Virus record (IMG/VR): IMGVR_UViG_3300005534_000048
Span: 1-23,944 of that record
DNA from: a virus
Direction: 5' to 3' (one strand)
DNA: 23,944 nucleotides
The translations under genes and the position numbers were made by a program. Of the stretch, positions 2 to 23,154 are shown in pieces (the stretch's first letter is position 1; each line of letters starts with the position of its first letter). Under the pieces are notes generated by a model. It saw only the letters and a program-made list of their open reading frames with translations, was not told the DNA's origin and did not search any database.

Positions 2-568
2 AATATCTCCTAATCGTTTGCTGGCCTTCTGCCGTTTAATCTTCTCTGTAATCGTCTTAAACTTATCAAGACGTACCCTAATCCCCGCGCGGCGATAGCC
101 TTTGCGTTTGAAACTCTTGTCCAGTTCTAGCTGTTTCAAAGATTTGCGCTCCATATCTGGCAGGCCCAAATCTTCCATCATAATATCAATTAGTTCATCA
201 ATAGTAACACTAGTTTCATAAACGTCTTCACCACTGTCATCACCACCTTGTCTACCCACACCTTTACCTTGGCCACGTTTATTGCGTTTACCAATAACGT
301 CGCCTTCTTTGCTGTCTTCATCTCCCTCTGCAACATCAGAGTGATTATCCCCGTAAACAAAATGATACTCTTTGATACCTTTGATGGGAATTTTAACTAT
401 CTCGTCTCCATCGCGGCCAATGATTGATTCTTCGGAAATAACTTTTCCGATATTCTTCTTAATTGCCTCTCTGACCTTTTCATTGTGCCGCGCACGGTCG
501 CCAGCAGACCTGTCACTACGTTCGCTATCATGCTGGTTGTATTCTCTAAAAATCGTATCAGTCGGCAT
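2..568 (-). CDS. yhbH: YhbH/YeaH-family (DUF444) protein, N-terminal half, cut by window edge
   Basis: The gene reads from ATG at 568 on the minus strand and stays open to the left edge (189 codons seen). The translation has DUF444 family hallmarks: an N-terminal His/Arg-rich stretch, then 'KVREAIKKNIGKVISEESII', 'IPIKGIKEYHFVYGDN', a glycine-rich 'GQGKGVGRQGGD' segment, and 'ELIDIMMEDLGLPDMERK'. Bacterial members are about 390-430 residues, so roughly half is visible and the C-terminal VWA-like part would lie outside. In Bacillus and Escherichia the gene is linked to prkA/yeaG and often to spoVR; here prkA lies three genes upstream on the same strand. The start overlaps the preceding stop as TAATG, implying translational coupling. 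Its molecular function is not established; by family it is a partner of the PrkA kinase. I am sure of the family, and the phage role is inference. Confidence 0.88.
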   Translation of the reverse strand, partial: MPTDTIFREYNQHDSERSDRSAGDRARHNEKVREAIKKNIGKVISEESIIGRDGDEIVKIPIKGIKEYHFVYGDNHSDVAEGDEDSKEGDVIGKRNKRGQGKGVGRQGGDDSGEDVYETSVTIDELIDIMMEDLGLPDMERKSLKQLELDKSFKRKGYRRAGIRVRLDKFKTITEKIKRQKASKRLGDI

Positions 569-756
569 TAGTATTTCATCCTTCTGCAATAACAAATCAC
601 TACTTCAGTACCACAAAAAAAACGAACTGCGCCGGATTCACGATCTCTAAAAGTGCCTAGCACATTCTCAGTTGCTTCCACTCCTACTGTACAAATTGAA
701 CCGGCAATATGTTCGTAATCAAAGTGGCCGCATTTACATTTTCTAGGTTTATGCAT
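568..756 (-). CDS. Small Cys/His protein, possible zinc binder (62 aa)
   Basis: The 62-residue protein starts MHKPRKCKCGHFDYEH. The CxCGHxxxxH pattern near the N-terminus, with later cysteines (C22 and a 'CYC' pair near the end), suggests a small metal-binding fold. I do not recognise a named family. I chose ATG 756 because it overlaps the upstream stop as TAATG, the junction style of this operon; a TTG at 768 would add four residues but is less likely. The stop likewise overlaps the yhbH start. It lies between a small membrane gene and yhbH, so it is probably co-transcribed with the PrkA module. Function unknown. Confidence 0.62.
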   Translation of the reverse strand: MHKPRKCKCGHFDYEHIAGSICTVGVEATENVLGTFRDRESGAVRFFCGTEVVICYCRRMKY

Positions 757-872
757 TAATTTGGCCAAAAAATTGCGATTGTCAAAGCGCCAGCAATTGG
801 TATTCCTATACAGCCTAGAGCATAACCAAGACAGAAACTATAAGTAATAACGGCTAAATATTTAATTACCAT
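756..872 (-). CDS. Small hydrophobic membrane protein (38 aa), start uncertain
   Basis: From ATG 872 the frame encodes a 38-residue protein that is almost entirely hydrophobic (MVIKYLAVITYSFCLGYALG, then a second apolar stretch ending IAIFWPN). This fits one or two membrane segments. The frame is also open back to an ATG at 1001, giving 81 residues, but that extension is polar and Arg/Gly-rich, unlike the rest, and runs through a perfect hairpin in a GC-rich patch. I therefore favour the short form. Neither start has a convincing Shine-Dalgarno site. The stop overlaps the next ATG as TAATG. Function unknown; the family was not recognised. Confidence 0.45.
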   Translation of the reverse strand: MVIKYLAVITYSFCLGYALGCIGIPIAGALTIAIFWPN

Positions 873-887
873 AATAAACACAACTTT

Positions 888-921
888 GGGAGTAGGAGCC
901 AGATTAACGGCTCCTACTCCC
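888..921. repeat. Perfect 13-bp inverted repeat with 8-nt loop
   Basis: GGGAGTAGGAGCC at 888-900 is exactly mirrored by GGCTCCTACTCCC at 909-921, with an 8-base loop. It lies in a local GC-rich patch (901-960 is about 58% G+C by hand count) just upstream of the ATG at 872 on the minus strand. No T-run follows on either strand, so it is not a standard intrinsic terminator. It could be an RNA-processing or translation-control hairpin in the prkA-yhbH transcript, or a protein-binding palindrome. Confidence 0.7.
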
Positions 922-1068
922 TGTCTCGTTGAAGCGCGCCCTGATTCGCGCCCGTTAGGAAATCTATTGACTTCTGGGGTTCCGAGAAAAGTATGCGCCA
1001 TTTCAAGATAAAATTAGCAAACACTTAATCTCGGAATCGTAAATTCCCCAATAAAATCAAGGCTTTTT

Positions 1069-2991
1069 TCAATCCTTCCAGATATTGTTCGCCGCGTATT
1101 TTAGCACGATATCAACACAAGACTTACAATAGCCATTCTCCATCATATTCTTGACCATTGCATCGTACTTCTCTTGTTGCTCATTGTCACGGCTTCGTGC
1201 CTTAGTAACAATTCGGCTAATCTCGCGAACTGAACTCATTAGCTTCTTCTCGATTGCTTCCTTCAATGGCTCATAACTAACATAAGTCAGTTTATGGCCA
1301 CGGCGCATAGCAGTTGCAAGATAACTCAATACTTCTTGCCGGAATGTGTCTGCTTGTGAACCAATGATAGCAATCTGTTCTTCAATCGATTTCATAAATC
1401 CAATATCAGGATTAAGGTCTTCCTTGGTATTGTGGTCTTTAACCTTGGTCTTATTCACGTATGCTTCGGCATGATCCAAATAATTTTGGAACAATGACTC
1501 AGCCTGTTCACGATATGCGAAGATAAACGCCTTGGTAATCTCCTTCTCTAGAATCTCTAGGTACTCTTTGTGCAAGGTATCCTGTAGAATCTCAAGTAGA
1601 GCCTTCTTGTTATCATCCGACATATCAGAGCCTTTAACCATTTTAATCATGGCTTCACGCACGTTAATCGGATTGATACAATTACCTTCGATATTATCAG
1701 ACAGCGCATTATCTAGCGCCTTCATAATGAACCGAGTTGAGATTCCAAACAAACCTTCGCGCTTGGTATCTTCCTTCAATTCACTTACATCAATCTTCTT
1801 AGTGCGCCCCTTTTCTACTACTTCCTCGCCATTGTATAGGCGTAGTTTGGTCAGTGGGTCACACTTTGCAGTTGGCTCTAGCCGCGATAGAATCGCGAAT
1901 GTAGAAGCAACTTCCAATGTATGTGGCGCAATATGTGCATCGAAATCCGAGTTGCGAATAATCTTCTGATAAATCTTCACTTCCTCAGACAACCGCAGAT
2001 TATACGGCACCTTAACCACAACCATACGATCCAGAATCGCTTCGTTGGTATGGTCTGAACGAAACTTGGTCCATTCCGCCTCATTGGAATGCGCCATGAT
2101 AACGGAATCGACATATAGCATACCATGTCGGCCCGGCGCAGGAATTGACTTCTCCTGTGTTGCAGTGATCATCGCGTGCAAGTATTCGGTTTCGTTCTTG
2201 AACACTTCGATGAATTCAACTGTGCCACGATTACCAACATTAAACGCGCCATTCAGTTCTAGTACACGTGGATCGCCTTCAGAATACATATCCAGCTTAG
2301 AAATATCTTCTGAACCAATCAATACAGACGTATCCTGATTGTTTGGGTCAACTGGTGGAACTACACCAATGCCAATGCGATTACGCTTTGAAAAGCGATT
2401 CAGAGTTACTGGAAAGTCTTCATACTTCCCGTTAAATTCTTTTTTCAGTCTATACTGGCACACAGGGCAAAGATCACCTTCAATGGTGGTGCCAAGAAAC
2501 TTATCAAACTCCTTGCGCAACTGTTGTGGCACTAGATGCAAGGGTTCCTCATGCATTGGGCAGTCTTTTAATTCATAGAAGGTAATGCCTTCTAGCCCAC
2601 GTTTGATCTTTTCAACTAGCGAACTCTTACCAGAGCCAACAGGCCCAAGGAAATATAGTACTTGCCGACTCTCTTCGCCCTTCAGCGCGGCAGAATGAAA
2701 GTACTTTGCAATCTGATTGGTGGTTTCTTCCACACCAAAAAATTCATCTTTAAAAAACTCAATTTGCTTGAGTCCACTGTCCTTATATAAACGCTTGGTA
2801 CGCGGGTCATCTGTGTCAAGAATGTCTTTAACACCTTGGCTCATAATCATGTCATAAACAGTACGATGTGCCAATTTTACAATCCCCGGATTTTCCTTAA
2901 CTTTATCAAGGTATTGTAGAAAAGTGCCATTCCACTCTTCTTTCTCGAACTGTTCGCGATCCCTTACGATTAGTTCCTTAAGTTCTTGCAT
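1069..2991 (-). CDS. prkA: PrkA-type serine protein kinase / AAA+ ATPase
   Basis: The 640-residue protein matches the usual length of PrkA (about 630-645). The N-terminal PrkA AAA region carries the P-loop GPVGSGKS (residues 116-123), followed by 'CPMHEEPLHLVPQQLRKEF' (from 144) and 'EGDLCPVC' (CPVC 175-178). The CPMH and CPVC pairs are typical of Bacillus PrkA and are absent from E. coli YeaG. Further family signatures are NQDTSVLIGSEDISKLD, 'IMAHSNEAEW', 'VKVPYNLRLSEEVKIYQKII' and a C-terminal PrkA domain with 'DLNPDIGFMKSIEEQIAI'. In bacteria PrkA is a cytosolic Ser kinase/AAA protein active in stress, starvation and sporulation. The start is supported by AAGGAG about 7 bases upstream, and a consensus promoter lies at 3032-3060. 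The gene appears intact. Its presence in a phage beside yhbH suggests reprogramming of host stress signalling, which is inference. Confidence 0.93.
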   Translation of the reverse strand: MQELKELIVRDREQFEKEEWNGTFLQYLDKVKENPGIVKLAHRTVYDMIMSQGVKDILDTDDPRTKRLYKDSGLKQIEFFKDEFFGVEETTNQIAKYFHSAALKGEESRQVLYFLGPVGSGKSSLVEKIKRGLEGITFYELKDCPMHEEPLHLVPQQLRKEFDKFLGTTIEGDLCPVCQYRLKKEFNGKYEDFPVTLNRFSKRNRIGIGVVPPVDPNNQDTSVLIGSEDISKLDMYSEGDPRVLELNGAFNVGNRGTVEFIEVFKNETEYLHAMITATQEKSIPAPGRHGMLYVDSVIMAHSNEAEWTKFRSDHTNEAILDRMVVVKVPYNLRLSEEVKIYQKIIRNSDFDAHIAPHTLEVASTFAILSRLEPTAKCDPLTKLRLYNGEEVVEKGRTKKIDVSELKEDTKREGLFGISTRFIMKALDNALSDNIEGNCINPINVREAMIKMVKGSDMSDDNKKALLEILQDTLHKEYLEILEKEITKAFIFAYREQAESLFQNYLDHAEAYVNKTKVKDHNTKEDLNPDIGFMKSIEEQIAIIGSQADTFRQEVLSYLATAMRRGHKLTYVSYEPLKEAIEKKLMSSVREISRIVTKARSRDNEQQEKYDAMVKNMMENGYCKSCVDIVLKYAANNIWKD

Positions 2992-3031: not shown

Positions 3032-3060
3032 ATTCTAGCAAACCTTGACCGGCTTGTCAA
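3032..3060 (-). promoter_or_regulatory. Sigma70-type promoter for prkA
   Basis: On the minus strand there is a perfect -35 TTGACA (3055-3060), a 17-base spacer and -10 TAGAAT (3032-3037) preceded by TGC, an extended -10. Transcription would start near 3025, about 33 bases upstream of the prkA ATG. The promoter lies within the last codons of the upstream 70-residue gene, so prkA can be expressed apart from the methyltransferase operon. Confidence 0.75.
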
Positions 3061-3247
3061 GAAGTTTTTCCACACATTCCAAGGCGTTCCTTCCTACGAT
3101 GACTGGCACTTCACAGCCTTCCCCATTATGCACTAAGATTGTAAAAGGTGTTTCTAACGGAGCTAGTGTTGACCAATAAATTGGTTGAACGGTGACGATT
3201 AATAAATCGTGCTCTTTGCAATAATTGATTGCGTCTATTGGTTCCAT
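3035..3247 (-). CDS. Hypothetical protein (70 aa)
   Basis: The 70-residue protein (MEPIDAINYCKEHDLLIVTV...) has a mixed alpha/beta look: an N-terminal helix, a hydrophobic strand 'LLIVTVQPIYW', a further strand 'FTILVHNG' and a C-terminal helix 'ALECVEKLLDKP'. I recognise no family. The ATG overlaps the stop of the upstream 29-codon membrane gene (TAATG), implying coupled translation within the dam operon. The 3' end contains the prkA promoter. A small regulator or anti-host factor is possible but has no direct support. Confidence 0.6.
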   Translation of the reverse strand: MEPIDAINYCKEHDLLIVTVQPIYWSTLAPLETPFTILVHNGEGCEVPVIVGRNALECVEKLLDKPVKVC

Positions 3248-5605: not shown

Positions 5606-5726
5606 CGGCTGCGATGGAAAGGGGTGGGTTACTGTTTTTAACGAACCAAAACTTTGTCCTGTATGCAAAGGAAGTGGGAAAATTAATACGCAAAAAAGTA
5701 ATACGCAAGAAGAATTCCATAAATGA
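5586..5726 (+). CDS. Mini zinc-finger protein with two CxxCxGxG motifs (46 aa)
   Basis: From GTG 5586 the frame encodes 46 residues with CNGCDGKG (residues 6-13) and CPVCKGSG (24-31), two copies of the CxxCxGxG motif of the DnaJ central domain. Four cysteines could bind one zinc ion. No J-domain or substrate-binding domain is present, so this is a free-standing zinc knuckle and not DnaJ. It overlaps the upstream gene by 20 bases and the downstream GIY-YIG start by 4 bases (ATGA). AGGGAG lies about 11 bases upstream of GTG. Such small phage proteins often lie among packaging genes; a chaperone-adaptor or nucleic-acid role is possible, unproven. Confidence 0.6.
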   Translation: MIHTNCNGCDGKGWVTVFNEPKLCPVCKGSGKINTQKSNTQEEFHK

Positions 5727-6307
5727 CAAGCATCTATACGTTGTCTGACCCACGTGATCCTGAGAATGTTAGATATGTTGGGAAGACGGTTAATTCACTC
5801 AAAAAACGATTAAAGACACATTGTGCAGATTTTAGAAATTCTGATCACAAAACTAATTGGGTAAAAAAATTGAAAAGGCTAAATTTGAAGCCAGTGATTA
5901 TTCCCATTGCGATGTGTAAATCTGAAGAAGATGCTAAAATTTGTGAAATCCAGTGTATTAAACAGTTTATAGATTGGGGTTACAACCTGACTAATAGCAC
6001 CGATGGTGGAGAGGGGCCGCAAGGTTATAAACATACGCTAGAAACTAAATCTAAACTATCAATGATTAAAACAGGAAATAAAAATTGGTTGGGTAAAAAA
6101 CATTCGGAAGAAACAATACAAAAATTGTCTACGCGTAAACTAGGCAAAAATAATCCATTTTTTGGTAAGAAACACACTTTAACAGCGTTAAATAAAATGT
6201 CACTTGCACGGCGTGGGGAAAATAATCCTAATTTTGGCAAACAGCATTCATTAGAAACTCGCGCAAAAATTTCTGAAGCAGCTAAACAACGTTGGGCGAA
6301 AAAATAA
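5723..6307 (+). CDS. GIY-YIG homing endonuclease 1 with NUMOD3 repeats
   Basis: The 194-residue protein has an N-terminal GIY-YIG nuclease domain: IYTL (Y5), RYVGKT (Y18-V19-G20), R29, and the metal-binding/catalytic E75 in 'CEIQCIKQF', followed by N91 in 'NLTNSTDGG'. All key residues are present. The C-terminal half (about 100-190) holds several NUMOD3-type DNA-binding repeats such as GKKHSEETIQKLS and NPFFGKKHT. It is a free-standing endonuclease, not part of a visible intron: it fits between the mini zinc-finger gene (ATGA overlap) and the next gene (3-base gap). Its ribosome-binding site is weak. Bases 5746-5787 differ at one position from GIY-YIG 4. Confidence 0.92.
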   Translation: MTSIYTLSDPRDPENVRYVGKTVNSLKKRLKTHCADFRNSDHKTNWVKKLKRLNLKPVIIPIAMCKSEEDAKICEIQCIKQFIDWGYNLTNSTDGGEGPQGYKHTLETKSKLSMIKTGNKNWLGKKHSEETIQKLSTRKLGKNNPFFGKKHTLTALNKMSLARRGENNPNFGKQHSLETRAKISEAAKQRWAKK

Positions 6308-12503: not shown

Positions 12504-13091
12504 ATGACAAGTATATATACACTAACAGACCCGCGCAAACCAGAGGATATCAGATATATTGGTAAAACATCTCAAGCATTAAAAAGGAGATTGTCTGTGC
12601 ATTGCGCCGATTTAAAAGGCACAGATCACCGAACTAATTGGATAAAATCGTTACTTAATGCTGGTGTGAAACCTACCATCAATCAAATTGCAACGGTTTT
12701 AAATGAGCAAGATACTGCGCACGTAGAAATAATCTGTATTCAGCAGTTTAAATCTTTTGGGTACAATTTAGTAAATAGCACAAATGGTGGTGATGGGGTA
12801 TCAAAGCATTCTGCTGAAACCCGTGCTAAAATATCCGCCAGTAAAATGGGTACAAAACATCCGTATTTTGGAAAACACCTTTCTCTTGAGCATCGTACAA
12901 AAATAGGCGCAGCAAGCAAAGGAAGAAAACATACGGAAAAAACAAAACACTTTATTTCAGAAACCTATAAAGGTAAAAATAATCCTTTCTTTGGACGAAA
13001 GCATACGCCCGAAACACGTGCAAAAATGTCTGAAGCACAAAAAGGCAATACACATAAAAAAGATTATTTAAAAGCCAAGGGGCTTGTATAA
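12504..13091 (+). CDS. GIY-YIG homing endonuclease 2 with NUMOD3 repeats
   Basis: The 195-residue protein repeats the architecture of copy 1. GIY-YIG residues Y5, Y18-I19-G20, R29, E75 ('VEIICIQQF') and N91 ('NLVNSTNGG') are all present, so it should be active. NUMOD3-like repeats fill residues 98-180 (KHSAETRAKISASKMG, NPFFGRKHTPETRAKMS). It begins one base after the stop of the beta-rich gene and ends two bases before the next ATG, so it is inserted exactly at a gene boundary. The upstream site is weak (GGCGG only). Bases 12993-13032 match GIY-YIG 4 at 37 of 40 positions, indicating shared ancestry or gene conversion of the binding-repeat part. Confidence 0.92.
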   Translation: MTSIYTLTDPRKPEDIRYIGKTSQALKRRLSVHCADLKGTDHRTNWIKSLLNAGVKPTINQIATVLNEQDTAHVEIICIQQFKSFGYNLVNSTNGGDGVSKHSAETRAKISASKMGTKHPYFGKHLSLEHRTKIGAASKGRKHTEKTKHFISETYKGKNNPFFGRKHTPETRAKMSEAQKGNTHKKDYLKAKGLV

Positions 13092-13093
13092 TA

Positions 13094-13570
13094 ATGTTGT
13101 GGTTACTGGCTAAATCAAGACAACCCGGAGTACCTACCGGCAAGTTAGAAGGCCGCGTCAAAAATGTTGTATTGCACAAGAAAGCAGCGGGCGCTAAAGC
13201 TAGACCGGGAACTAAAGGCAGCGCAGTAGGACAAGCACCAAAATTAGGCAAGATATCTAGTGGTGGTTCTAAATTAGGCTCAGTAATGGGTGCGAAAAAG
13301 AAAAATCCATTTACCCCTAAATCGCGGCCTAGTGAGCATGGTTGGCAAAGTAAGCTTGCGCACAATGACTTTGCGCCCGGATTCTTTAAGAAGAATCTTT
13401 ATGTAGAATTTGAAATGCACGATGGCACCAAAGGGCAAGGACGAGTTAGAGACTTTGGGCCTAAAGGATGCCAATTGCATTGTGATGACGGTAAGATACG
13501 CCATACCTTTTACCACGAAATTAAGGGCAAAGTAAAAGAGGAAGCTAAAAATGGAAAAACCAAAAAGTAA
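13094..13570 (+). CDS. Basic protein with C-terminal beta-barrel-like segment, unknown
   Basis: The 158-residue protein has a Lys/Gly/Ala-rich, probably disordered N-terminal half (KNVVLHKKAAGAKARPGTKG and following). A compact C-terminal segment (about 100-148) with 'LYVEFEMHDGTKGQGRVRDF' and 'GCQLHCDDGKIRHTFYHEI' looks like a small SH3-type beta barrel. I do not recognise a named family. AAGGGG lies about 9 bases before the ATG. The 3' end overlaps the HNH gene by 20 bases. Its charge suggests contact with DNA or RNA, perhaps as an internal virion or head protein; this is inference. Confidence 0.6.
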   Translation: MLWLLAKSRQPGVPTGKLEGRVKNVVLHKKAAGAKARPGTKGSAVGQAPKLGKISSGGSKLGSVMGAKKKNPFTPKSRPSEHGWQSKLAHNDFAPGFFKKNLYVEFEMHDGTKGQGRVRDFGPKGCQLHCDDGKIRHTFYHEIKGKVKEEAKNGKTKK

Positions 13571-14174
13571 GCTTTGTAAAAATGGATTACATGAAATTAC
13601 TGGTGAAATATTTGACGGCGGTTACAAGTGCCTAGAATGTAAACGTGCTTCTGCCAGTAAGGGCCAATCAAAATACAGGCAAGACCCAATAATTAAAGAG
13701 CAACTATTACAAGCAACCAGAGAGTGGCGCACGCTTAACCCAGAACACTTAAGAGAATACAACAAACAAAGATACATTAAAAACTATCAAAATCCTGAAT
13801 TTGTAGCGCATAAGAGCGAATATGATAAAGAACGTTGGAGAAGCCTAGAGATGCAAACACACTACGCGGAAAACAGAGAAAAAATAAGCTTAACGCAAAC
13901 ACTGCGCAATATCGGCATGACGGAAGATTTATATTATCAATTATTAGAAAAACAAAAAGGCTTATGCGCTATTTGTGGTATGCCGGAAACTAGACGAAGC
14001 CGTAGTGGAGTATTATGCCGCCTTTCAGTAGATCATGATCATACTACTGATAAAGTAAGAGCACTTTTATGCCACCAATGCAATGTTGGTATAGGTAACT
14101 TTGATGACAACGAAGAATTATTAATTAAGGCGGCTAATTACGTTAAACAGCATAACGGAGTTAATAATGCCTAG
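13551..14174 (+). CDS. Endonuclease VII-like HNH nuclease
   Basis: The 207-residue protein has a C-terminal treble-clef nuclease fold of the recombination endonuclease VII family: 'LCAICGMPE', catalytic 'LSVDHDHTTDKVRALLC' and 'HQCNVGIGNFDDN'. The paired CxxC motifs bind structural zinc and DHDH carries the catalytic His. The N-terminus has another Cys/His group ('LCKNGLHEITGE', 'YKCLECKRA') and the middle is a charged helix. Free-standing members in phages usually act as homing endonucleases; true T4 gp49 resolves recombination junctions, so either is possible. GAGGAAG precedes the ATG. It overlaps the genes on both sides by 20 and 8 bases. Confidence 0.88.
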   Translation: MEKPKSKLCKNGLHEITGEIFDGGYKCLECKRASASKGQSKYRQDPIIKEQLLQATREWRTLNPEHLREYNKQRYIKNYQNPEFVAHKSEYDKERWRSLEMQTHYAENREKISLTQTLRNIGMTEDLYYQLLEKQKGLCAICGMPETRRSRSGVLCRLSVDHDHTTDKVRALLCHQCNVGIGNFDDNEELLIKAANYVKQHNGVNNA

Positions 14175-16102: not shown

Positions 16103-16765
16103 ATGTTTTTTGTATACACACTAGCAGACCCACGCAAGCCAGAAGATATAAGGTATATTGGTAAAACTGGCCGTACACTAGATTATCGACTAAGTTGCCA
16201 TTGTAGTGATCTTAAAGCACGCAATTACCGCACTAACTGGATCAAACATCTTAAAAATCAAGGCTTGCGCCCACTTATCTATCCTATAGCTATGTGTAAA
16301 TCAGAATTAGATACTAACGCCTGTGAAATATTCTGTATTAAGCAATTTCGTGATTGGGGTTACAAATTAACTAATGGTACTGAAGGTGGAGATGGTGTTT
16401 CTGGAAGAATAGTATCAGAAGAAACCAAAGCTAAAATCGCTGCCAAACTAAAAGGAAACAAAAACGGAGCTAATCCAACAATGGAAACACGCGCCAAATT
16501 TTCAATGGCACGTAAAGGTAATAAACATGCGCTAGGTTACAAACATACGCCAGAAGAATTAGCCAAAATTGCTGCTACAAGCCAACAATATTGGGCCAGC
16601 AGAAAACTTCCAGAAAAAATAGAAAAACAAATTGTGGAAGAGTATACAAAAGGAAAAAAGACAGTGGAAATTGAACAAAAACAAGGACTTTCCAAATATC
16701 ATGTACTAACTACGTTAAGAAAATATGGTGTCACCATTCGTGGGGCATTCAAGAAGACTAAGTAA
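16103..16765 (+). CDS. GIY-YIG homing endonuclease 3 with C-terminal helix-turn-helix
   Basis: The 220-residue protein starts with a complete GIY-YIG domain: VYTL (Y5), RYIGKT (18-20), R29, E75 ('CEIFCIKQF') and N91. The middle has two or three NUMOD3-like repeats (SEETKAKIAAKLKGNK, YKHTPEELAKIAA). Unlike the other copies, residues 170-215 form a helix-turn-helix-like end ('KQIVEEYTKGKKTVEIEQKQ', 'GLSKYHVLTTLRKYGV'), comparable to the intron-encoded nuclease repeat/HTH modules that give target specificity. It fits exactly between two genes (2 bases after the stop, next ATG directly after its own stop). No ribosome-binding site is visible. Confidence 0.92.
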   Translation: MFFVYTLADPRKPEDIRYIGKTGRTLDYRLSCHCSDLKARNYRTNWIKHLKNQGLRPLIYPIAMCKSELDTNACEIFCIKQFRDWGYKLTNGTEGGDGVSGRIVSEETKAKIAAKLKGNKNGANPTMETRAKFSMARKGNKHALGYKHTPEELAKIAATSQQYWASRKLPEKIEKQIVEEYTKGKKTVEIEQKQGLSKYHVLTTLRKYGVTIRGAFKKTK

Positions 16766-18453: not shown

Positions 18454-18906
18454 ATGCGGTGTTCTAAATGTAAAAAATCAAAAGATAAGCGGCAATTTTA
18501 CAAAAATCCTCGCAGTAAACGTGGTTTGGATTATCGTTGTAAAGCTTGTCATCTAGCAATAGCTAGACAATGCCCAAGCCGAACACCGGAAGTACGAAAG
18601 CAGCGTTATCAAAAAGACAAAGAAAAAATACGTAATATAAACTTGAAGTACTGTTTTGGTATCGATCTAAACGAATACAACAGAATGCTTGAAGCACAAA
18701 ATTTTAAATGTGCTATTTGTGAAAAAACTAAGAATGAAAATGTAGGCCAATATGGTAAACAACTTAACTTCAGTGTAGACCATGACCATGTTACTTTAAG
18801 AGTGCGCGGATTATTATGCACCAAGTGTAATAGTGTTCTTGGCTTGGCAAATGATTCAATTAAAATTTTGGAGCGGAGCATTACATACCTTAAAAATGCG
18901 TTGTAA
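18454..18906 (+). CDS. Endonuclease VII-like HNH nuclease (second copy)
   Basis: The 150-residue protein opens with a zinc ribbon (MRCSKCKKSKDKRQFYKN ... YRCKACH, residues 1-32). The C-terminal half is a treble-clef nuclease with 'CAICEKTKNE', 'FSVDHDHVTLRVRGLLC' and 'TKCNSVLGLANDS', the same DHDH and C-x2-C layout as the gene at 13551, but the middle differs and is shorter. It is probably a free-standing homing endonuclease inserted between the DUF3309-like gene and the small zinc protein. The upstream site is poor (GGAG about 15 bases away). The 3' end overlaps the following gene by about 11 bases. Confidence 0.87.
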   Translation: MRCSKCKKSKDKRQFYKNPRSKRGLDYRCKACHLAIARQCPSRTPEVRKQRYQKDKEKIRNINLKYCFGIDLNEYNRMLEAQNFKCAICEKTKNENVGQYGKQLNFSVDHDHVTLRVRGLLCTKCNSVLGLANDSIKILERSITYLKNAL

Positions 18907-19099: not shown

Positions 19100-20617
19100 A
19101 TGGCTACAATTACTAATATCTCAGTCGTAACTGACCAGCAGTTTTATTCTAGATACGATTCCAGTTACAACATTGTTACAGCTACGATTACGTTTTCACC
19201 TTCGCCTACTACAGACGTTCTTACTATTCAGTGGCAACGTAATTCACTAGCCGCTGGTGGGCAGACGCAGCCACAATCACAACCATCTCCCGGTCCTACA
19301 ATATCTGCGCCTATCCCACTTGGCCCGGCACAAACTATTACATTAACTGGTGGTACATCTCCGGTAACTACTAGTTTAAATCTTACCACAGTAGCTGATT
19401 CTGATGGTTACATGCTTGCTAAATGCAGCAACGTACTGAATGATTACTCAATTGTTGTAACAACTTCCACAAGTATCAAAGCAACAGCTACATTCACCGT
19501 GTTACCAGTTGTGCCAGCAGAAATGCATTCTCGTTGGTTCTATGGCTTGCCACTTATCGCATTTGAAAGCTTAACAGCTACCGTGCAACCAACCAATACC
19601 ACAGGTATTTCAATCACAGGTGTTGGCTTTAATTCTGGCCGGGGCGCGTATGCGTTGACTTACAACAACAGCACACATCAAATAACCTTCGGTAATGGTT
19701 CACCCATAACCATCTCACCAAGCACAACTAGCATGGTAATATATGATCTAAGTAATAACAATGTTACCATTAGTGTAAACTATAGTGCCTTGCCAAGTAG
19801 CTCTACCACTGATACCGTCTTTATCGACTACAAGACGTTGCAGGATATAGATATTGCGCGCTCGCTGATTCAATCTTACAAAGAAACCGAGCGTGGTATG
19901 ATGACGCGGGTAGAACCAACGCACATAGTGTCAAGAGGAATCTTGAACTATGATTTTGGTATCCCTAACTTGCCTGACCCTAATGTTTCAGCTACATCTC
20001 TTGGCGCTAGCGGTGGTACATGGGCACCCACCTACTATGATGAAATTGCAGATGGTGTTTCATTCTTTAAACAAAGTTCGAGCAATCAATGGATTAACAT
20101 TGAAGCGCCTTTTACCAACATACTTGAAGTTTATCAGTTAGCTGGATTTTTCAACAAACAACAGACCGTTAACATACCACAATCATGGATTAGCTTTACA
20201 AGTAGACCCGGTATCATACAACTTGTACCAACAAACTATGCAATCCTAAACTGGATTCTAGCTCAAGCAAGTTTTTATTTCTTTTTTCTGGCTTCAGATT
20301 ATATTCCACAATTCTGGCATTTTGATATTTTGGTTGGCTTACGTGAAGGCATTCCGCAAGAAATGCGCGACTACATTGCAGCCCGAAGCGCAATTGAATT
20401 GCTTGGGCAGATAATTTTGGCGCGATTTCCTCTTGGCGCTACTAGTTATACAATCTCGCGTGATGGTGTAGCCGAAAGTCGAAGCATTACTCCACTGTTC
20501 TATATGCAAGCTATCCAAGGATTAGAGCGCCAAATTGGCAGAATTCCGGGCACCACAGATAAAGCGTTAATAACATTACGACAAACATACAATGGTATGT
20601 GGGTTCGTAGCCTTTAG
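19100..20617 (+). CDS. Virion structural protein with Ig-like N-terminus (505 aa)
   Basis: The 505-residue protein begins directly after the preceding stop, with GGAG 6 bases upstream. Residues 1-260 are Thr/Ser/Pro-rich beta strands (for example 'YNIVTATITFSPSPTTDVLT', 'DGYMLAKCSNVLNDYSIVV', 'HQITFGNGSPITISPSTTSM'), like tandem Ig-like domains. Residues 260-505 change to mixed alpha/beta with aromatic-rich 'FYFFFLASDYIPQFWHFDIL' and 'IPQEMRDYIAARSAIELLGQ', then a conserved-looking 'RFPLGATSYTISRDGVAESR'. No enzyme motif is present. It lies in the structural region ahead of neck-like genes, so it is probably a neck, tail or baseplate component; exact identity not recognised. Confidence 0.65.
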   Translation: MATITNISVVTDQQFYSRYDSSYNIVTATITFSPSPTTDVLTIQWQRNSLAAGGQTQPQSQPSPGPTISAPIPLGPAQTITLTGGTSPVTTSLNLTTVADSDGYMLAKCSNVLNDYSIVVTTSTSIKATATFTVLPVVPAEMHSRWFYGLPLIAFESLTATVQPTNTTGISITGVGFNSGRGAYALTYNNSTHQITFGNGSPITISPSTTSMVIYDLSNNNVTISVNYSALPSSSTTDTVFIDYKTLQDIDIARSLIQSYKETERGMMTRVEPTHIVSRGILNYDFGIPNLPDPNVSATSLGASGGTWAPTYYDEIADGVSFFKQSSSNQWINIEAPFTNILEVYQLAGFFNKQQTVNIPQSWISFTSRPGIIQLVPTNYAILNWILAQASFYFFFLASDYIPQFWHFDILVGLREGIPQEMRDYIAARSAIELLGQIILARFPLGATSYTISRDGVAESRSITPLFYMQAIQGLERQIGRIPGTTDKALITLRQTYNGMWVRSL

Positions 20618-20621
20618 TTAT

Positions 20622-21254
20622 ATGGAATTATTTAACATATACACCCTAGTTGACCCGCGTGATCCTGAGAATGTTAGATATGTTGGGAAGACAAAAGCGG
20701 AACGAATTAAGAAACGATTAATTGAACATTGTTACGCAAAAAATTTAAAAACTAACACGCATCACAACTATTGGATAAAAACTTTACTTAAAAGTGGATT
20801 TAAACCAACCATGAACATAATCGCTTCTTGTAAGTCTGAAGACGCAATTAATATAACGGAAACCCAAGCAATCAAACAATATCGTTCTTGGGGATACAAC
20901 CTAGTCAATGCTACAGATGGCGGAGAAGGTAGTGTAGGGTACAGGCCAAACAAAAAAACAAGGGTAAAAATATCTGCCAGCTTAATAGGCAACACACGTA
21001 CTTTAGGTCACAAATTAAGTGAGGAACACAAAGCTAAAATATCTGCTGGAAATAAAGGTAAATACGTAAAAAGTCCTTCGATTGAAACACGGCATAAAAT
21101 TGCTGCTGCGTTGTGTGGACGAAAGCATACACCCGAAACACGCGCCAAAATGTCTGCTACGCACAAGAAGATAATATTTACACCGGAGCATAGAGCTAAT
21201 TTATCTGTAGCAATAACAAAATATTATGCAAATAAAAAATTGGGACTAGAATAA
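20622..21254 (+). CDS. GIY-YIG homing endonuclease 4 with NUMOD3 repeats
   Basis: The 210-residue protein has IYTL (Y7), RYVGKT (20-22), R32, E80 ('ETQAIKQY') and N96 ('NLVNATDGG'), all the GIY-YIG catalytic residues. Residues 105-205 hold NUMOD3-like repeats (KLSEEHKAKISAGNKG, GRKHTPETRAKMSATH). I take the start at ATG 20622, aligned with the other copies; the frame is open to 20592 but that would overlap the upstream gene. No binding site is visible. It ends overlapping the next gene (TAATG). Bases 20651-20692 differ from GIY-YIG 1 at one of 42 positions, and 21117-21156 differ from GIY-YIG 2 at three of 40, so it looks like a mosaic of the two. Confidence 0.92.
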   Translation: MELFNIYTLVDPRDPENVRYVGKTKAERIKKRLIEHCYAKNLKTNTHHNYWIKTLLKSGFKPTMNIIASCKSEDAINITETQAIKQYRSWGYNLVNATDGGEGSVGYRPNKKTRVKISASLIGNTRTLGHKLSEEHKAKISAGNKGKYVKSPSIETRHKIAAALCGRKHTPETRAKMSATHKKIIFTPEHRANLSVAITKYYANKKLGLE

Positions 21255-22646: not shown

Positions 22647-22653
22647 ATTGCCA

Positions 22654-23154
22654 ATGACAAAAATCTATACTCTCACAGACCCGCGTACCCCAGAAGATAT
22701 AAGGTATGTGGGTAAGACAGTTCAACCATTGTCTAAAAGACTGGCTAAACATTTAACGGATTTCAAATTCAAAAGTCATCGGGCTAATTGGATTAAGAGT
22801 TTATTGATTGCGGGGATTAAACCAGAGATTAAAGAATTTGCTGTTGTAGTTGATGACTCTAAAGCAGCCAAAATTGAAATTCAATGGATAAAATTCTTTC
22901 GTGAAAACGGCCACAATCTTGTAAATAGCACAGATGGTGGAGAAGGATGTTTAGGGCGTAAATTTTCTCAAACAGCAATAACAAAAATGTCCTTGGCAGC
23001 CAAAGGCAATAAACGAAGATTAGGAATGAAAAATTCTGTTTGGCATAATGAACAAATATCTCTAGCCAATAAAGGTAGAAAATTTTCAGCCGAACACATA
23101 ACAAATTTATCTAAAGCACAGCAAGCTAGATATTTAAAAGAGAGGACCATTTAA
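22654..23154 (+). CDS. GIY-YIG homing endonuclease 5 (short form)
   Basis: The 166-residue protein, from ATG 22654, has IYTL (Y5), RYVGKT (18-20), R29, E75 ('IEIQWIKFF') and N91 ('NLVNSTDGG'). It has only about two NUMOD3-like repeats (residues 100-155), the fewest of the five copies, so its target is probably shorter or different. A TTG at 22648 would add two residues, but the other copies begin MTxIYTL, so I keep ATG. The start is only 7 bases after the terminator T-run and no binding site is seen; expression needs read-through, and the hairpin would mask the ribosome-binding region. The gene may be expressed late or very weakly. Confidence 0.9.
   Translation: MTKIYTLTDPRTPEDIRYVGKTVQPLSKRLAKHLTDFKFKSHRANWIKSLLIAGIKPEIKEFAVVVDDSKAAKIEIQWIKFFRENGHNLVNSTDGGEGCLGRKFSQTAITKMSLAAKGNKRRLGMKNSVWHNEQISLANKGRKFSAEHITNLSKAQQARYLKERTI

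Follow-up and report, generated by a model that had tools for sequence, protein, structure and literature searches.

The virus record IMGVR_UViG_3300005534_000048 of IMG/VR, analysed over its entire length of 23,944 bp (hereafter, the window), carries a phage-borne copy of prkA followed by the start of yhbH, two genes that in bacteria often share a locus with spoVR. This prkA has been captured by the phage and is intact, and in related phages it is retained together with both partner genes under selection. The best explanation, which we hold at a little under even confidence, is that a captured, functional PrkA-YhbH(-SpoVR) module imposes a stress or quiescence state on the host; control of the host state is the part of this explanation that we infer.

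The prkA gene (positions 1069-2991, minus strand) is complete and encodes a protein of 640 aa, which matched the Pfam domains AAA_PrkA (PF08298; E = 9e-145, 482.6 bits) and PrkA C-terminal (PF06798; E = 2e-81, 273.7 bits), above the curated cut-off of 25 bits in both cases. On the same strand, yhbH (2-568) is represented by its first 189 aa, which matched DUF444 (PF04285; E = 3e-42, 145.7 bits) at profile positions 5-178 of 418. The contig end falls before the metal ion-dependent adhesion site (MIDAS) of the vWA domain, so that the N-terminal part alone is present, and spoVR is out of sight because the record ends inside yhbH. The Pfam matches confirmed the original prediction, made from the letters and their open reading frames (ORFs), of a full-length PrkA and the N-terminal half of a YhbH on one strand. 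Its description of the module as intact held for PrkA, which is whole and shows no sign of decay, but not for yhbH, which is cut, or for spoVR, which would lie beyond the end of the record.

PrkA also contains the features noticed at the outset, a P-loop (GPVGSGKSS) and CPMH/CPVC motifs; these Cys/His pairs were found in a Bacillus PrkA and are absent from E. coli YeaG. In an alignment of 36 proteins, the Walker A residues K122/S123, the sensor-1 residue N303, and the Arg-finger R322 were invariant (roles assigned by analogy), and the window PrkA retained all 42 of the 42 residues invariant in 35 relatives. The lysine K426 of YeaG, which was mutated as kinase-dead in a published study, aligned with K424 of the window PrkA; this position is occupied by N in a Bacillus PrkA and by D in phage TMA and is thus not a universal catalytic residue.

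Rightward of prkA, we observed a small ORF and a Dam methyltransferase gene, then plus-strand genes for TerL, the portal, and head and tail proteins; the co-occurrence of TerL and portal genes identifies the contig as that of a tailed phage. The prkA gene is divergent from terL and has its own sigma70-type promoter pattern immediately upstream (3060..3032, minus strand; TTGACA-17-TAGAAT, extended -10, 11 of 12 consensus positions). Across the window, 11-of-12 matches that include the TG were limited to two, versus 0.05 expected, one preceding prkA and the other terL, so that the consensus promoter reported earlier is real as a pattern. No close relatives of the window TerL and portal were found in IMG/VR, and therefore a further phage sharing this junction was not available for comparison.

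The GC content of the window prkA (0.425) was close to that of the phage (0.41), whereas the nearest cellular prkA genes ranged from 0.51 to 0.62. Similarly, its codon-usage distance to the phage structural genes was 0.14, versus 0.21-0.39 for the nearest cellular prkA genes, although the unrounded value of 0.144 slightly exceeds the distances among individual structural genes (0.08-0.13). The nearest relatives of the protein, from Myxococcota/Deltaproteobacteria, were 74-75% identical, versus 60% for other phages, and synonymous sites were saturated against two of the nearest relatives, at 73-75% protein identity. With a phage-like base composition, a codon usage nearer to the phage than that of its cellular kin, all 42 invariant residues kept and synonymous sites saturated, the window prkA fits an old capture kept under selection rather than recent or decaying host DNA. 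The finding proposed beforehand as refuting, a recently transduced segment with decay, did not materialise as far as one gene allows, since the protein is approximately 25% diverged, with phage GC and invariant residues kept.

In the PrkA tree, the window copy was placed among cellular proteins of the Myxococcota/Deltaproteobacteria type, and marine phages formed a separate clade. The PrkA of locus L017 was placed among Clostridia, and those of Thermus phages, huge phages, and locus L007 were placed elsewhere. A tree in which the window and the marine phages were constrained together was rejected by the approximately unbiased (AU) test (p = 0.0003), and well-supported branches of the tree required five or more transitions between viruses and cells. 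Like the composition and the invariant residues, the tree speaks against host DNA that was misassembled or is decaying. Because of this rejection and these transitions, capture of PrkA by phages has been repeated, and the window copy is, as placed by its sequence, independent of the marine-phage capture.

A profile scan of IMG/VR detected PrkA relatives on mostly marine virus contigs; they numbered at least 438, and 80 were retained for analysis. A search based on SpoVR yielded 494 viral relatives; here, the 80 loci examined were the closest matches, and the figures hold for that group. Gene order was established in 88 viral loci: 76 exhibited the order DUF444-SpoVR-PrkA and 6 the order PrkA-DUF444-SpoVR, giving the triad in 82 out of 88, and most of the loci without the full triad were interrupted by contig ends. 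The triad was complete in all 80 loci selected by SpoVR. For close pairs with unsaturated synonymous sites, the ratio of nonsynonymous to synonymous substitution rates (dN/dS) was approximately 0.02-0.1 for each of the three genes, which are thus all under purifying selection. Many of the contigs with the triad, which reach 289 kb, carry T4-like Gp23 capsid genes.

Among the phage records of INPHARED, 16 encoded a PrkA (approximately 30-34% identical), belonging to Thermus phages, huge uncultured phages, and Enterobacter phage LAU1. The YeaG/YeaH of LAU1 was excluded because its record opens at yeaG, which makes these genes probable host DNA flanking a prophage. SpoVR is encoded next to PrkA in the Thermus phages TMA, Lalka27b, and MN1, with a vWA/DUF444 gene in the same cluster in TMA and Lalka27b. 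In the huge phage LR756502, spoVR lies approximately 245 kb from prkA, and the proteins can therefore persist even when their genes lie apart. With the triad widespread in IMG/VR contigs, Thermus phages, and huge phages, and its members reported piecemeal in the literature (PMC8504454, PMC8940887), the view that such a phage system is rare was not upheld.

The distance from the triad to Gp23 was approximately 6 kb in one subclade and 75-112 kb in other marine phages, and these whole-contig positions ruled out a constant association between the module and capsid genes. The T4 late-promoter motif was found upstream of none of 74 marine operons; it was likewise not enriched upstream of Gp23, and its absence is therefore uninformative on timing. 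In marine phages, a protein of 436 aa that weakly resembles GroEL-type chaperonins of phages was repeatedly encoded in the vicinity of prkA (L053:12271-13581 and 37 further viral loci).

Among the sampled cellular loci, 63 out of 80 exhibited the order PrkA-DUF444-SpoVR, and the window retains this bacterial order in its prkA and yhbH genes. The order DUF444-SpoVR-PrkA was observed in phages and in a single locus filed as cellular, L111 (NHDW01000006.1, Methylococcaceae bacterium TMED69). The PrkA of L111 is nested in the marine phage clade and the assembly contains Gp23 and TerL; this locus probably comes from a phage contig that ended up in a bacterial bin. Marine and Thermus phages (L002-L006, L012, L013, and L252), in contrast to cellular loci (L090-L110), share the order DUF444-SpoVR-PrkA despite their distant PrkAs, which could reflect either convergent reordering or a hidden common origin. 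In addition, on a contig filed under Parcubacteria (L092:6276-13442), another PrkA gene comes after the set PrkA-DUF444-SpoVR.

The AlphaFold2 model of the window PrkA (predicted local distance difference test, pLDDT, of 88) consists of an AAA+ module followed by helices, with residues 380-640 almost wholly helical and no lobe of a bilobal kinase fold. The 50 best Foldseek matches in the PDB were all AAA+ proteins, the best being BchI, Lon, NtrX, and ClpC; among smaller targets, the MoxR proteins CbbQ and NorQ were best covered, with template modelling (TM) scores of 0.64-0.70 by target length. As no MoxR Pfam match was detected in the window PrkA, this likeness is at fold level only. A viral structural match was ORF618 of Acidianus two-tailed virus (ATV). 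The sole close sequence relative with a solved structure carries the name "serine protein kinase" (9xip, 9xiq, and 9xir), with 30 chains over the three entries, compatible with a ring; weak matches to Lon in the P-loop region came next. Among viral relatives, the MIDAS motif (DxSxS) of the vWA domain was retained in 82 out of 83 DUF444 proteins. The HxxGH motif of SpoVR was retained in 80 out of 86 loci. The HxxGH and NEGxA motifs of SpoVR suggest a metal site but prove nothing. The SpoVR model was confident (pLDDT 86.5) and had no PDB match at E ≤ 0.001.

The literature on phosphotransfer is in conflict: E. coli YeaG, described as acting with YeaH as a metabolic brake in nitrogen starvation, has been termed a kinase (PMC10954441), whereas the PrkA of B. 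anthracis had next to no activity as a kinase or protease and is nevertheless required for sporulation and osmotic stress (PMC13001217). Given the predicted AAA+ fold of MoxR/Lon type, the helical C-terminal part, and the inactivity of the B. anthracis protein, "kinase", the term that the original prediction adopted, is probably a misnomer for PrkA. Structure prediction supports PrkA as a MoxR/Lon-like AAA+ ATPase, with YhbH as its putative vWA partner and SpoVR as a candidate third component in relatives.

According to the explanation that we favour, an ancestor of the phage would have acquired PrkA-YhbH(-SpoVR) from a bacterial donor, probably one of the Myxococcota/Deltaproteobacteria type, and kept it functional. 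Transcription of prkA would start at its own promoter, of host sigma70 type, by a host-type RNA polymerase. PrkA and its vWA partner would then use ATP to remodel host protein targets, as do NorQ/NorD or CbbQ/CbbO, with SpoVR as the third part of a MoxR-like AAA+/vWA remodelling machine. The result would be the stress-tolerant, metabolically slowed state of the bacterial module, triggered by the phage, which would keep a cell that is starved or under stress productive throughout infection. The suggestion that the phage takes over host stress signalling is reasonable, at the level of inference. Several observations weigh against the favoured explanation: in this phage yhbH is incomplete and spoVR unseen; the module adjoins TerL here and in L007, and portal and TerL in Lalka27b, which could mean a role in morphogenesis; and one subclade has the triad adjacent to Gp23. 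A wider claim, possible although we lean against it, is that the whole triad has been captured repeatedly and has taken, in the distant marine T4-like and Thermus lineages, the order DUF444-SpoVR-PrkA unseen in sampled cellular loci, to form a phage-driven AAA+/vWA complex that imposes controlled quiescence and would be one of the more common host-control modules still undescribed in ocean phages.

The main rival explanation is that the AAA+/vWA pair, with SpoVR, is a chaperone that folds or assembles head or tail proteins. An assembly role has been reported for ATV and put forward for MoxR-vWA pairs that other jumbo phages encode (Iyer et al. PMC7824862), and this precedent, the likeness of the PrkA model to ATV ORF618, and the position of the prkA operon beside TerL in the window are all in its favour, as are the order PrkA-DUF444-SpoVR-TerL in L007, the consecutive genes for portal, minor head protein, vWA, SpoVR, PrkA, and TerL in Lalka27b, and the presence of Gp23 within the analysed gene cluster of 18 viral loci. 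However, other marine phages with the same triad have Gp23 at the large distances given above, prkA in the window is divergent from terL under its own promoter, and bacteria keep the same three genes together in the absence of any virion, and we consider this role unlikely, while giving it more weight than the other rivals.

An improbable alternative is anti-defence or superinfection exclusion, in which an AAA+/vWA/SpoVR complex would target proteins of the host or of competitor phages rather than host metabolism. AAA+ and vWA proteins recur in the biological-conflict systems of jumbo phages (PMC7824862) and the module is common to many unrelated phages; however, the bacterial homologues serve sporulation and the response to starvation or osmotic stress (PMC10954441, PMC13001217), and the window module lies beside a Dam methyltransferase gene, with no other defence-like neighbour recognised in the window. 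Least probable is a passenger: host chromosomal DNA that was transduced or misassembled and is of no use to the phage. Identity to cellular proteins, bacterial gene order, the location of the region at the end of a metagenomic contig, and the slight excess in codon distance would suit such an origin. It is opposed by the phage-like GC, by saturated synonymous divergence with every invariant residue kept, by the Dam gene and small phage ORFs that separate prkA from TerL, and by the hundreds of further phage contigs in which selection maintains the same triad.

Two small ORFs lie between prkA and yhbH on the minus strand. The 66-aa, Cys-rich ORF (568-768) is a plausible gene, for which neither a family match nor relatives were found. 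The 81-aa ORF (756-1001) is doubtful as a gene because it spans a perfect 13-bp inverted repeat with an 8-nt loop (888-921, minus strand; folding z = -5.8), located downstream of prkA. This hairpin was not among the calls of the terminator scan, because its T tract is broken; it is more likely a terminator or processing element after prkA. The proposal that the small genes may be regulators of the module was not supported, one of them being probably a hairpin. Upstream of prkA, a 70-aa ORF (3035-3247, minus strand) had no family match and is a neighbour whose membership of the module is only putative. A search of Rfam returned no match in the window.

Five GIY-YIG genes (5723-6307, 12504-13091, 16103-16765, 20592-21254, and 22648-23154), four of them with NUMOD3 motifs, were placed between the structural genes. 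They are 40-49% identical to one another and, by sequence, form a family of predicted free-standing homing-type endonucleases in one 24-kb stretch. Moreover, two endonuclease VII (HNH-type) genes (13551-14174 and 18454-18906), 34% identical over 96 residues, were found in the same structural region.

The window copy resembles the bacterial PrkA/YeaG-YhbH/YeaH-SpoVR module in its Pfam families, its prkA-yhbH order, and all of its invariant PrkA residues; it differs in being phage-borne, with a strong sigma70-type promoter, a hairpin after prkA, a cut yhbH, and an unseen spoVR. The marine T4-like triads (e.g., L002-L006, L082, and L086) also encode DUF444, SpoVR, and PrkA in a phage, with PrkAs approximately 53-60% identical to that of the window, but they exhibit the order DUF444-SpoVR-PrkA and form a separate clade for which the AU test rejects a common viral origin with the window. 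The Thermus phages phiYS40/TMA/Lalka/MN1 likewise carry vWA, SpoVR, and PrkA genes, near TerL and portal in Lalka27b, but in another order and lineage and with PrkAs only approximately 32% identical. In the cultured Ralstonia jumbo phage RsoM2USA, SpoVR (ORF28) and PrkA (ORF30) are encoded close together; this 343-kb phage infects a plant pathogen, its PrkA best matches Alcanivorax, and the genes were listed without functional study (PMC8504454). With MoxR-vWA systems (NorQ/NorD, CbbQ/CbbO, BchI/BchD, and ATV ORF618), the module shares a predicted AAA+ core and an adjacent MIDAS-type vWA gene, whereas PrkA forms a sequence family of its own, distinguished by Cys/His pairs and an extended helical C-terminal part, and SpoVR has no counterpart; the module may thus be said to work like these systems, not to be one of them. 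No description of the triad as a phage module or system was found in a literature search that missed most subscription papers. The window is one more case of a phage PrkA module, independently captured and truncated.

PrkA, YhbH, and SpoVR are conserved across bacteria and their biochemical job is disputed. Their repeated capture and joint retention under purifying selection indicate that the three proteins work as a unit that is useful in the infected cell, and phage proteins and mutants make the question of their function testable. Finally, spoVR, the most abundant sporulation-type viral gene in a marine oxygen minimum zone, was read there as a sign of sporulation (PMC8940887); the viral spoVR of this low-oxygen zone may instead be re-read as part of a three-gene machine.

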